Part shown: positions 3,700 through 16,762 of the stretch, piece by piece
How the letters are laid out: the number at the start of each line of letters is the position of its first letter
Numbering within the stretch: the first letter of the stretch is position 1
Notes under the pieces: model-generated
The model's database searches: none
What the model was told of the DNA's origin: nothing
Seen by the model: only the letters and a program-made list of their open reading frames with translations
Program-made: the position numbers and the translations under genes
IMG/VR virus record: IMGVR_UViG_3300023500_000016
Span: 1 to 34,194 of that record
Origin: a virus
Length of the DNA stretch: 34,194 nt
Strand: one strand, 5' to 3'

Positions 3700-4116
3700 A
3701 TGCCAGAAGAATCTAAGACTTACGAATGTAGCGTATGCAATAGCGTTCAACTAGAAGGCGTGCCGTGCCTTTGTGCTAGCGGTGCAATATCTAGCGAGAT
3801 CGACCACGGACTCCGAGGTAGATTCGCTCGCAACAACAAATACTTTCAGGTCACGCGTGAGATGGGCGGCATGGCTTTACTATATATTCACACCCGATCT
3901 TTCTACTCTATCGTAAGGCGAAGCGAGGGCGGCTCGGCTTACTATGACTTCTCCCGGCGTGTATACAGATCTTATGGCGAGGCCCTCGAGGCAATGAACC
4001 TGTGCCAAAATATAGACTGGGCTCATGACTTCCCTTTCGACTTCGATGCGGAGGTGTGCCCTAACTATCTTGGTGGGTTCTTCGACCACCTCCAGGACCT
4101 TATGCCTACAGATTGA
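3700..4116 (+). CDS. Hypothetical protein with N-terminal zinc-ribbon-like cysteines
   Basis: The 138-residue protein begins with a knuckle-like region: Cys at YECSVC, then VPCLC, a CxxC...CxC layout that could hold zinc. The spacing recalls the MCDCKLTEGV...ICS tag of the genes at 1068 and 2393 (LEGV then CLC), so the three N-termini may be distantly related. The remainder is rich in Tyr, Arg and Phe and unrecognised. Start ATG 3700 has GGAG six bases upstream. The junction motif lies just upstream, where an abandoned MSTK-type start (TTG at 3676) opens a 13-codon remnant. Confidence 0.65.
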   Translation: MPEESKTYECSVCNSVQLEGVPCLCASGAISSEIDHGLRGRFARNNKYFQVTREMGGMALLYIHTRSFYSIVRRSEGGSAYYDFSRRVYRSYGEALEAMNLCQNIDWAHDFPFDFDAEVCPNYLGGFFDHLQDLMPTD

Positions 4117-8489: not shown

Positions 8490-8497
8490 TTCGTTAT

Positions 8498-8568
8498 TAC
8501 CCGCACCAGAAATCGAACCTGAGTCATCCCGATTGCAAATCGAGACTCTGCCACTGAGCTATGCGGGC
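8498..8568 (-). tRNA. tRNA, probably Ala (anticodon TGC)
   Basis: Seventy-one bases fold as a cloverleaf: acceptor GCCCGCA/TGCGGGT with a terminal G-T pair, D arm GCTC/GAGT, anticodon stem CTCGA/TCGGG with loop TTTGCAA, and a T arm with the usual GGTTCGATT loop. The loop places TGC at 34-36, hence Ala. Position 26 is missing and the T stem closes with a G-T pair. If the stem were shifted by one base the anticodon would read GCA (Cys), but pairing is then poor. CCA is not encoded. Confidence 0.75.
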
Positions 8569-8630
8569 AAAATGCGGCTTATTTATCGTGGACACCGCAA
8601 AACCACGTCCTGGGAAAGGATACCTCACAT

Positions 8631-12341: not shown

Positions 12342-12438
12342 AATCAAGTACAAAACAGATGAGTGTGCCGGAAGAACACCGCATTAGGACACTCGCTATC
12401 TTTTCGGCTCTGTCTTCAAATGTTATTTTTTCTTTCAT
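12331..12438 (-). CDS. Possible 35-residue protein coupled to csrA
   Basis: A short frame begins at ATG 12438 and overlaps the csrA stop by ATGA, the coupling used by many genes in this window. The product starts MKEKITFEDRAEKIASVLMR and is amphipathic and helical by appearance. No own ribosome-binding site is seen and no family is recognised. Confidence 0.4.
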   Translation of the reverse strand: MKEKITFEDRAEKIASVLMRCSSGTLICFVLDYDY

Positions 12439-12623
12439 CTCGGATTGGCCGCCTTTTTTGCATGAAGTTTTTTCCTGTCAATAACAATACTTCTGTCAGC
12501 ATTGAACGCAAGTTTAACAGCTTGTCTACTTATGTCATACTCGACAAACACAACCTCAACAAGTTCACCTGCTGGCGTCGTTATAATAATCGAATCATTT
12601 CGTCTAATACTCAGTACAAGCAT
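12435..12623 (-). CDS. csrA: CsrA-family RNA-binding regulator
   Basis: The 62-residue protein begins MLVLSIRRNDSIII, the hallmark start of CsrA, followed by strands EVVFVEY and QAVKLAF and the SIVIDRKKL end that corresponds to the VHRxEI segment of CsrA. CsrA is a dimer that binds GGA in mRNA leaders and blocks or alters translation. The family is known in bacteria and in some phages. AAAGGA precedes ATG 12623 by five bases. It lies right after a tRNA-like element. The ANGGA-rich RBSs of the phage and the host mRNAs are possible targets. The Arg near the end of strand 5 (R50) is conserved. Confidence 0.85.
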   Translation of the reverse strand: MLVLSIRRNDSIIITTPAGELVEVVFVEYDISRQAVKLAFNADRSIVIDRKKLHAKKAANPR

Positions 12624-12642
12624 TTCAATCCTTTCAAAAAAA

Positions 12643-12706
12643 TAGAGCGTGCGGGAGTCGAACCCGCAACGAATCAGGGTAACTAATGATTCGCTTGCCA
12701 CGCACC
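12643..12706 (-). tRNA. tRNA-like element with canonical T arm but abnormal anticodon arm
   Basis: The T arm GCGGG-TTCGACT-CCCGC is textbook and is followed by a 7-base acceptor strand (ACGCTCT) and discriminator A. GGTGCGT upstream can pair with it with one mismatch. Between them lies a 7-bp stem CGAATCA/TGATTCG with a 10-base loop and no D arm. A longer reading up to 12732 (GGGGCGA acceptor) would give 90 bases with this stem as a long variable arm, but then no normal anticodon hairpin is found. Amino acid not assigned; it could be a decayed tRNA, a tRNA-like domain or an attachment-site copy of a tRNA 3' half. Confidence 0.4.
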
Positions 12707-12738
12707 TGCTCGCGGACAGATGCCATCGCCCCACGGCA

Positions 12739-13053
12739 TCAACCTGTCGGGGCTTCTACCTCCTGCCCGGTCGTCATTCCGGAGTCGATGCCAAGGTTTT
12801 CATTCGGCGCATTGAAACACTCTGGATTATCCAAATCAAAATCTTTTTGTGCATAACTCGTCGGTGACAATCCACGAGCTAAGAATTTTATAGCACGTTT
12901 GTATGATGATGGTGATAAGTCAATATAGTCGCATTTCATCATATTGAATTCATCTTCTTCTGGTCCGCAAACCTCATCGATTTTGAATCTGTATCGCTTG
13001 ACATTTTTGGTCGATTTCGACACATCACATTGCCTTACTTCAATTTGCGACAT
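12739..13053 (-). CDS. Hypothetical protein
   Basis: About 104 residues from ATG 13053 (MSQIEVRQCDV); an ATG at 13065 gives four more residues but sits too close to the AAAGG site. The first half has strand-like KRYRFKIDEV, the middle a Tyr/Asp-rich segment and the end is Gly/Thr/Glu-rich and probably disordered. It overlaps the end of the upstream recombination partner gene and precedes the tRNA-like element. No family recognised. Confidence 0.65.
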   Translation of the reverse strand: MSQIEVRQCDVSKSTKNVKRYRFKIDEVCGPEEDEFNMMKCDYIDLSPSSYKRAIKFLARGLSPTSYAQKDFDLDNPECFNAPNENLGIDSGMTTGQEVEAPTG

Positions 13054-14005
13054 CAACTTTTTCATCCTTTCTTGTTTTGATTTCGTCCATAATCATATCA
13101 AGGTCTGGCTGACTGCACTGGCTGATTTCCTCTGCTTCTTGGAGGTTGAATTGCTTCAAGATTTCTGCAATCATTTCTCCAGGCAAATCAATCAGCGCAG
13201 TATAAACATCTTCGTGAACAATTGTTGGCTTTACAGGTTTTTTTGATTTTTTCTTTTTAGCAATCTTATCGGATAGTGGCTGACGATCAGTAGAAGCCTT
13301 TGGAAATGCTTCAGACATTGTTTGCGATCCTTCCTTGATTGCAGTTGCCGTACCATGCAATTTTTCAAGGTCGCTAAGTGTTACGTCCTCAATTGATTTT
13401 CTGCCGATGGCTCGAAGTATGTCAGTCTGAGCAGCACCCTGCTTTACCAGATATGCAATTAACGCAAGCCTACGCTCGCTCAATGTTTTCAGTGTGCCGC
13501 AAACCATATCCCTGGCCGCATTGTACGCACCCTGCCAGTACATTCGGGGGATGACTTTAAATATAGCGTTACGCAATGCGATCGCAGCCGCAGCATTCGC
13601 TGTGACGTTTATCATGTCTGCGCTAAATCTGTGTCCGTTTTTAGTTACTATCGATCTTCTGACTTCGCAGCTATGTTGAACGTTGTTTTCCAGGTCGTAA
13701 CAAACACCTTGTGCCAAAACAAAATCGTGCCCGATCTCGATGACTCTCGATCCAGATTGAATGTTCTGATATGTCGATGCGGCAACTTCAGCCATTCGAA
13801 TCGATCCGCCGCTTATTGGCTCACCTGCTCTGGGGATCGAGTACATCATTGACGCCGCAGCCTCTTTGTCGATAGTTGCCATTGCGGCCATCTTATCCAT
13901 GCAGGTCGCAAGGTCTCTTGGATACTGCTTCGCTGTCGTTATACGCGAATCTGTGTCTGCCCTAGTGATTGCCTGTATTGCGTTCTGTGGCATAATTTCA
14001 TCCAT
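13040..14005 (-). CDS. Conserved phage recombination-block protein, putative single-strand annealing partner
   Basis: The 321-residue protein has the layout of a widespread phage family: YPRDLATCMDKMAAMAT, then MMYSIPRAGEPISGGSIRMAE, NIQSGSRVIEIG, AQGVCYDLENN and a NAAAAIALRNAIFKVIPR helix. I do not know a proven activity. Because it overlaps the YqaJ exonuclease gene by TAATG, it most likely acts with it as annealing or loading protein, as Redbeta/RecT do with their nucleases; this is inference. The C-terminal ~100 residues carry a Lys-rich linker and a small acidic helical domain. Confidence 0.75.
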   Translation of the reverse strand: MDEIMPQNAIQAITRADTDSRITTAKQYPRDLATCMDKMAAMATIDKEAAASMMYSIPRAGEPISGGSIRMAEVAASTYQNIQSGSRVIEIGHDFVLAQGVCYDLENNVQHSCEVRRSIVTKNGHRFSADMINVTANAAAAIALRNAIFKVIPRMYWQGAYNAARDMVCGTLKTLSERRLALIAYLVKQGAAQTDILRAIGRKSIEDVTLSDLEKLHGTATAIKEGSQTMSEAFPKASTDRQPLSDKIAKKKKSKKPVKPTIVHEDVYTALIDLPGEMIAEILKQFNLQEAEEISQCSQPDLDMIMDEIKTRKDEKVDVAN

Positions 14006-16286: not shown

Positions 16287-16346
16287 TGGTTTTATAAAAG
16301 TTTTTTTATAACGGCTGTTCTATGGTGCTATGCGGTGTTCTGCGCA

Positions 16347-16376
16347 CAAAAAAACTCTGTGAATCCGTTCACAGAG
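16347..16376 (-). terminator. Intrinsic terminator at the end of the late operon
   Basis: A perfect 9-bp stem CTCTGTGAA/TTCACAGAG with a 4-base loop is followed on the minus strand by seven T residues. It ends transcription that comes through the structural and membrane-protein genes. Confidence 0.85.
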
Positions 16377-16435
16377 CTTTATATGTATATGCGGTCGAGC
16401 ATCATTTCGTGCATCAGTCTGAAACTCGACCGCAA

Positions 16436-16762
16436 TCAATCAGGAGGCTTTATCTTTTTATGCTTCCCTTTGGCTGTATCAATCATCCATCGAAATGATT
16501 TGAAATTGTGGCCTATAATATAGGCGGCGTGTGGACCGAATACCAACGCAAGGATGATCCAGAAGTATTGGGTTGCCAATGCTATGGCAACATCACTATC
16601 GACAACCATGTCACCCTGTACTTTTTTTATATCACGACCAAGTCGAAACGGCGTCCTATTCGATACCGTGCAAGAAATTAGCATACAAAGGCATATGATT
16701 ATTGCTGCCAACATCATGCCAACAATTACTGCATCTTTTTTTCTTATCCTAAAATAATCCAA
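16436..16762 (-). CDS. Membrane protein with two transmembrane helices
   Basis: About 108 residues from TTG 16762; GGAGG lies seven bases before this TTG, while ATG 16777 has no such site. Two hydrophobic helices (VIVGMMLAAIIICLCMLI and YFWIILALVFGPHAAYII) are separated by a polar loop, and the C-terminus is very basic. The place after the tail genes and before the terminator suits a lysis function, holin for instance, but no family is recognised. Confidence 0.65.
   Translation of the reverse strand: MDYFRIRKKDAVIVGMMLAAIIICLCMLISCTVSNRTPFRLGRDIKKVQGDMVVDSDVAIALATQYFWIILALVFGPHAAYIIGHNFKSFRWMIDTAKGKHKKIKPPD

Follow-up and report, generated by a model that had tools for sequence, protein, structure and literature searches.

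A 91-nt tRNA-like element without an anticodon arm ahead of a csrA-like gene in a viral record, and a phage family of tag-less tmRNAs

tRNA-like RNAs that are unable to decode escape standard gene finders. Mycobacteriophage DS6A is tabulated as 'TLD only' (PMC4131195), and a molecule similar to the DS6A form is said there to inhibit tmRNA strongly, perhaps by titrating SmpB (PMC4131195, citing Mao et al. 2009). The same source gives a terminal G-C pair for all of the tmRNAs and bacterial tRNA-Ala that it examined, bar one Carsonella lineage. DS6A is again named as the phage form, inhibiting the endogenous tmRNA in E. coli, in PMC11915505, where nine standard no-CDS tmRNAs are counted among 97,179. 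The tmRNAs present in phages have been counted (PMC9004378), and a tag-less form in phages is not described in the accessible parts of PMC7162821 and PMC10865867. DS6A is the one phage example named in the literature that we searched, mostly open-access papers, in which a wide family of tag-less tmRNAs in phages goes unreported; this is no proof of novelty.

The element considered here lies in an IMG/VR virus record (IMGVR_UViG_3300023500_000016; possibly a fragment), positions 1-34,194 of which make up the window, that is, the whole stretch of 34,194 bases that was analysed. The minus strand of the window encodes terminase, portal, prohead protease, capsid, a YqaJ/RecE-like exonuclease and a helicase. 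On this strand, read from 12733 to 12643, the element takes up 91 of the 115 nt that separate the stop codon of an unassigned ORF from the start codon (ATG) of a csrA-like gene, leaving 5 nt on the upstream side and 19 nt on the downstream side (Table 1). The csrA-like protein is matched by the Pfam CsrA profile and falls under the NCBIfam csrA cut-off (20.2 versus 70.1 bits). Far from this locus, at 1406-1795, the window is of low complexity and translates into repeated RRSSVVGRS-like strings from one strand and into RRPTIDRRPTTD-like strings from its complement.

Table 1. Coordinates of the tRNA-like element and its surroundings in the window, and of tag-less tmRNAs in other viral sequences
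Feature	Location	Strand	Basis
91-nt tRNA-like element; minimum-energy cloverleaf has no anticodon arm	12643..12733	minus	sequence and folding
Acceptor-like stem, 5' strand TGGGGCG	12727..12733	minus	pairs with 12649..12643; folding
D-position hairpin, 8 bp, 6-nt loop CCGCGA	12702..12723	minus	folding
Anticodon-position hairpin, 9 bp, 10-nt loop TTAGTTACCC, abuts T arm	12668..12695	minus	folding
T arm GCGGG-TTCGACT-CCCGC	12651..12667	minus	sequence and shuffles
ACGCTCT, acceptor-like 3' strand, plus a discriminator-like A; CCA absent	12643..12650	minus	sequence, folding
Spacer between element and csrA, 19 nt: seven T, then Shine-Dalgarno-like GAAAGGA	12624..12642	minus	sequence
csrA-like gene, ATG at 12623	12435..12623	minus	Pfam CsrA, E 1.4e-7
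Upstream ORF, stop codon 12741-12739	12739..13065	minus	ORF list, profile scans
Tag-less tmRNAs, cultured phages	OR725497.1 17977-18054; PV588686.1 33356-33433; MT701595.1 42932-43010		model R1
Tag-less tmRNAs, cultured phages	KX925554.1 97143-97220; PV654398.1 83298-83374		model R1
Tag-less tmRNAs, viral contigs	L347-L465 and L019		D-loop motif and T arm pattern

The observation from which we started is partly confirmed, with corrections. The perfect T arm stands, and its loop has the TTCRANN form of tRNAs; the acceptor strand is likewise present, as an acceptor-like sequence without CCA; and a normal anticodon hairpin of 5 bp and 7 nt is missing. The hairpin that takes its position had been described as a 7-bp stem with a 10-base loop: the loop is as described and the stem is longer, comprising 9 bp when a G.U and an A-U pair are included. 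The absence of a D arm is not borne out by the best fold: given enough 5' sequence, the minimum-energy cloverleaf contains a D-position hairpin. By itself, the 91-nt sequence folds into this cloverleaf at -37.2 kcal/mol, with the acceptor-like stem, the D-position and anticodon-position hairpins and the T arm; the same structure is seen within a 168-nt context (z -2.17; 4/200 shuffles as stable), and the 5' side folds differently in a 98-nt piece that starts 7 nt further upstream (z -1.46). In standard numbering, counting A12643 as base 73, the acceptor-like stem has six pairs, two of which are G.U (G1.U72 and G3.U70), and one mismatch (A7 vs A66). A competing 64-nt, D-armless alternative, in which GGTGCGT (12706..12700) supplies the acceptor strand, can be drawn, and the energy model gives no clean fold for it; G3.U70 and A73 occur together in the 91-nt fold, but not in this alternative.

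The T arm, with its five G-C pairs, is the single such arm in the window, and none was found in 200 dinucleotide-shuffled windows, in which T arms of whatever G-C content average 0.195 per window. When the T arm and 3' strand were fixed and the 66 nt upstream were shuffled 2000 times, a cloverleaf, defined by a formed T arm, five or more paired acceptor bases and two inner hairpins, closed in 21 shuffles, or in 10 if at least six acceptor bases were to be paired; 257 of the 2000 were at least as stable as the element (z -1.2). The shape of the element is, then, unusual and its stability ordinary. The latter, together with the ease with which acceptor complements of 6/7 are found at random, is what would be expected had T arm and fold arisen by accident, but we regard such an accident as very unlikely given the shuffled windows, the rarity of closure and the way in which the element fits between two ORFs. 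The locus holds a T arm beyond chance in an unusual cloverleaf that has no anticodon arm and fills most of the gap between an ORF and csrA. Our tentative reading is that a discrete gene within a phage operon encodes here a tRNA-like RNA that does not decode and that would be cut out of the operon transcript.

No standard tRNA model scores well over the element, in keeping with the initial annotation. ARAGORN makes a sole call in the window, a tRNA-Ala at 8497-8569, and Rfam at gathering cut-offs likewise reports this tRNA alone, the element remaining uncalled by both; a relaxed ARAGORN run does list it, but among 102 'genes' in the window. ARAGORN also calls no tmRNA in the window. With canonical tRNA (RF00005), the element shares the T arm, the acceptor-like stem and the four-arm fold, but it has neither a 7-nt anticodon loop nor GG in the D loop. 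Selenocysteine tRNA (RF01852) is the best weak match within the tRNA clan and has a long D arm and a long extra arm in common with the element, but its score of 17.6 bits (E 1.1) falls short of the 47-bit cut-off. RNAs of the CsrB/RsmZ type are CsrA-binding leader or sponge RNAs; the position of the element in the csrA leader recalls them, but the sole GGA is that of the Shine-Dalgarno sequence and none lies in a hairpin loop, and a CsrA sponge was rejected for the window element.

Tag-less tmRNAs, which consist of the tRNA-like domain only (about 79 nt), prove to be a conserved and largely unannotated family in phages. Viral contigs were searched for the tmRNA D-loop motif, TGGNTTCGAC, with a T arm a short way beyond it, yielding at least 120 stretches; eight with an ARAGORN tRNA were dropped, and 109 of the remaining 112 have at least six of seven acceptor pairs. 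Among these 109, odd ones included, G3.U70 is present in 106 and A73 in 108; the 6-of-7 filter inflates the share of standard acceptor pairs, but a G.U at position 3 is not imposed by it. They amount to 74 distinct sequences, and leaving out six odd ones (L348, L351, L362, L366, L375 and L401) gives at least 68 distinct curated sequences, most of 77-81 nt. Three contigs (L348, L351 and L424) carry tandem T arms near the contig end, with a similar AGGGTGAATATCTTA-like stretch before each arm.

For the alignment, 49 less similar members were used, with L019 and two short sequences also left out. Because the acceptor stem was out of register in this alignment, 24 members (23 of the 26 that share one D-loop spacing, plus L382) were realigned, and model R1 was built on them. 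In the 24, 99.7% of cells are paired (73.8% in shuffles) and 90 cells change on both sides (26.4 in shuffles), and each slid control collapses. At acceptor pairs 4, 5, 6 and 7, both bases change in 7, 13, 10 and 3 of the sequences, respectively, whereas the terminal G1-C72 pair and G3.U70, the latter being the alanine identity element, are found in all 24; the constancy of parts of the D loop and T arm stems from the search pattern, which required them. R1 recovers L019, absent from the model set, at 54.7 bits, and finds members in five cultured Streptomyces phages, all without annotation: LuckySocke (OR725497.1, with Streptomyces lividans as its recorded host; 71.6 bits), pSt2308 (71.1 bits), Shaeky (68.1 bits), BRock (67.5 bits) and Riptide (50.5 bits). 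Microbacterium phage Armstrong gives a weaker match (31.3 bits), and in all six records the matches carry no annotated feature; in GiJojo, an annotated 'hypothetical protein' overlies the match. Rfam makes a tmRNA call for four of the six cultured-phage matches (57-64 bits), but these calls cover just 81-82 nt.

An ARAGORN tRNA lies within 500 nt of 18 of 71 sampled members, and csrA was seen at one of 130 family loci (L019); smpB, sought in the short flanks of the 130 loci, was present just in a bacterial control with a full tmRNA. None of eight bacterial genomes has a clear R1 match (one reaches 31.9 bits), and in three bacterial phyla the counts at E 1e-6 are 0/296, 1/294 and 0/299 (889 genomes, with 15-16 candidates scored in each and, hence, low sensitivity). 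The single bacterial hit is a full 354-nt tmRNA adjoining an smpB-like ORF (smpB judged by eye).

The window element resembles the tag-less tmRNA of the DS6A type (PMC4131195, PMC11915505) in its tRNA shape without an anticodon arm, its T arm and its acceptor-like stem. If the 91-nt fold is right, it additionally has G3.U70 and A73 in common with this class, but it differs in possessing an extra D-position hairpin, in having G1.U72 rather than the terminal G1-C72 pair, and in lacking TGGNTTCGAC. Moreover, R1 rates the element best in the window at 16 bits, which is in the range of ordinary tRNAs, Rfam-called tRNA places reaching 22.6 bits. On these three counts, that is, score, D-loop motif and terminal pair, the element was rejected as a tag-less tmRNA. 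It may nevertheless work like the members of this family.

No relative of the csrA region was retrieved with the 4.1-kb region, csrA, the adjacent recombination gene or terminase as queries. In viral contigs, csrA and the recombination gene gave no relatives, and terminase gave one 11.7-kb piece with an identical terminase and two others at 34-36%; the recombination protein has a match in none of the six records searched, the three terminase-bearing ones included. Two window proteins have distant relatives in phages. As no homologue of the element was found, there is no covariation to be reported for it.

The last 24-26 nt of the element do have counterparts, resembling the 3' ends of phage tRNAs at 92-96% identity: tRNA-Glu of Magritte (96.0% over 25 nt), tRNA-Leu of Myrna (92.3% over 26 nt) and a place in ACP17 (95.8% over 24 nt) that Rfam calls a tRNA. 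Further upstream in the element, GGTGCGT is one base away from GGAGCGT, the acceptor strand of the ACP17 tRNA-Glu. In Acidovorax phage ACP17 (KY979132.2), a tRNA at 276-348 (L479; Rfam 54.4 bits) is without annotation in the record. These likenesses, and the non-ideal acceptor pairs, leave the decaying tRNA of the initial annotation a serious candidate: in a rearranged, dead tRNA gene, a tRNA-Glu-like 3' half would have been kept and the 5' half replaced, leaving a fold with no function. Decay sits less well with the replacement of the D and anticodon arms by two long, almost perfect hairpins, with a cloverleaf that closes in so few shuffles and with the neat fit between ORFs. Such a remnant is the closest rival to a non-decoding RNA gene and nearly as likely; the element is probably either a tRNA mimic or a broken tRNA. 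It had also been proposed that the element copies the 3' half of a host tRNA as an attachment site, and the tRNA-like sequence is, in fact, confined to its 3' part. We consider this extremely unlikely, since the fold reaches over the 5' part and no integrase was recognized among the 26 ORFs scanned in a record that may be a fragment; additionally, the exact 25-base 3' end matches no viral contig, which is a weak test.

Two pattern scans of viral contigs brought together five csrA loci besides the window, with csrA judged by eye from translations. At two of these, L019 and L217, a tRNA-like element precedes csrA in the layout of the window, the distance from the end of the T arm to the csrA ATG being 29 and 27 nt, respectively, and 27 nt in the window. 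L201 has an ordinary tRNA-Leu directly ahead of csrA, and the matched T arms of L243 and L262 are due to chance, L262 also having an ordinary tRNA-Met roughly 100 nt upstream. The L019 element is above the Rfam tmRNA cut-off (51.1 bits vs 47, E 1.1e-17) by virtue of a match that skips 296 model positions, corresponding to the coding part and the pseudoknots. L217 (same record as L267) forms a compact cloverleaf, the anticodon-position hairpin of which has a 5-nt AUGGA loop, presumably a CsrA-like motif, in this single case. Among the matches listed from a pattern scan of genome contigs, no locus reads as csrA at the match.

The AUGGA loop would suit an arrangement in which the element acts in cis as a csrA leader, the structure and its seven U forming an attenuator or processing switch with no separate RNA. 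Consistent with this, the structure stops right at the U run and the csrA ribosome-binding site, and the scan for terminator-like sites marks one at the T arm; yet the U run is missing at both L019 and L217, the window element has no GGA beyond the Shine-Dalgarno sequence, and terminator-like sites number 2 against 0.6 expected. A leader of this kind is, in our estimation, unlikely.

The csrA background was taken from the best 80 of at least 468 loci fetched by protein, 75 of which are distinct (361 kb). The 0-250 nt upstream of csrA contain five T arms in 4/75 loci, the query's own record included, versus about 1.2 expected from the average of the 75-locus set. T arms near csrA are, thus, not clearly commoner than background and the association is weak; a csrA-specific RNA family was rejected, as the background T-arm frequency explains the loci from the two pattern scans. 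The suggestion that processing of a tRNA mimic would release the csrA mRNA fares unevenly: the layout is plausible, with a predicted 19-nt leader that carries a Shine-Dalgarno sequence and with L019 and L217 built alike, but the link to csrA itself does not stand clearly above background. The interpretation given in the initial annotation is, as a whole, partly supported.

In the same set, query locus included, T arms with at least four G-C pairs number 14 where shuffles predict 0.2, and of the 32 T arms 23 fall outside ARAGORN calls; some of the uncalled ones look like missed ordinary tRNAs, some look like chance, and others have large insertions or no anticodon arm. Misshapen tRNA-like genes are not rare in csrA-bearing phages. 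Those missed by ARAGORN at L280 (about 3800-4090), L289 (about 1940-2040) and L309 (about 2220-2400 and 2860-2945) have good acceptor and T arms together with large insertions or odd anticodon regions. Just upstream of csrA at L337 (about 2316-2450), two T and two D arms are nested in one structure, which resembles one tRNA inserted into, or overlapping, another. The related contigs L268/L270 and L269 are nearly identical on the csrA side and carry dissimilar tRNA-like elements about 140-210 nt upstream.

A non-decoding RNA gene is supported because the five-G-C T arm, the infrequent closure and the minimum-energy cloverleaf coincide, because the spacing between ORF and csrA is tidy and the layout recurs at L019 and L217, and because tRNA-like elements missed by ARAGORN are common at phage csrA loci. 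It is weakened because there is no homologue, stability is ordinary and the csrA association is weak, and because of G1.U72, A7 opposite A66 and the missing CCA. Were such a gene expressed, host RNase P and RNase Z would recognize the stacked acceptor/T-arm half and excise the element from the operon transcript; cleavage just 3' of A12643 would give csrA a 19-nt leader carrying the Shine-Dalgarno sequence, and excision would free a stable RNA unable to decode. Less securely, the freed RNA could divert enzymes that act on the ends of tRNAs, a decoy role that the tag-less tmRNAs of other phages may also have.

A wider and more doubtful proposal is that of a broad phage guild of non-decoding, tRNA-shaped RNAs, in which the G3.U70 tag-less tmRNA branch would be charged with alanine and block host ribosome rescue by taking up SmpB, and the window element would be a divergent member that tRNA-processing enzymes free from the csrA operon. 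Should this element and its kin prove to be real products, phages would be using the tRNA scaffold for purposes beyond translation. The family of tag-less tmRNAs is a more valuable lead than the window element, which is of moderate interest. The family's members are many and include those of cultured Streptomyces phages, making the anti-rescue idea testable in laboratory phage-host pairs. Among other phage tmRNA genes, permuted two-piece forms with no annotated feature were noted in Pseudomonas phage SM1 (KU245542.1, near 54019-54410; L476 518-909) and Xanthomonas phage Rb1 (PQ569993.1, near 16300-16605; L477 572-877).
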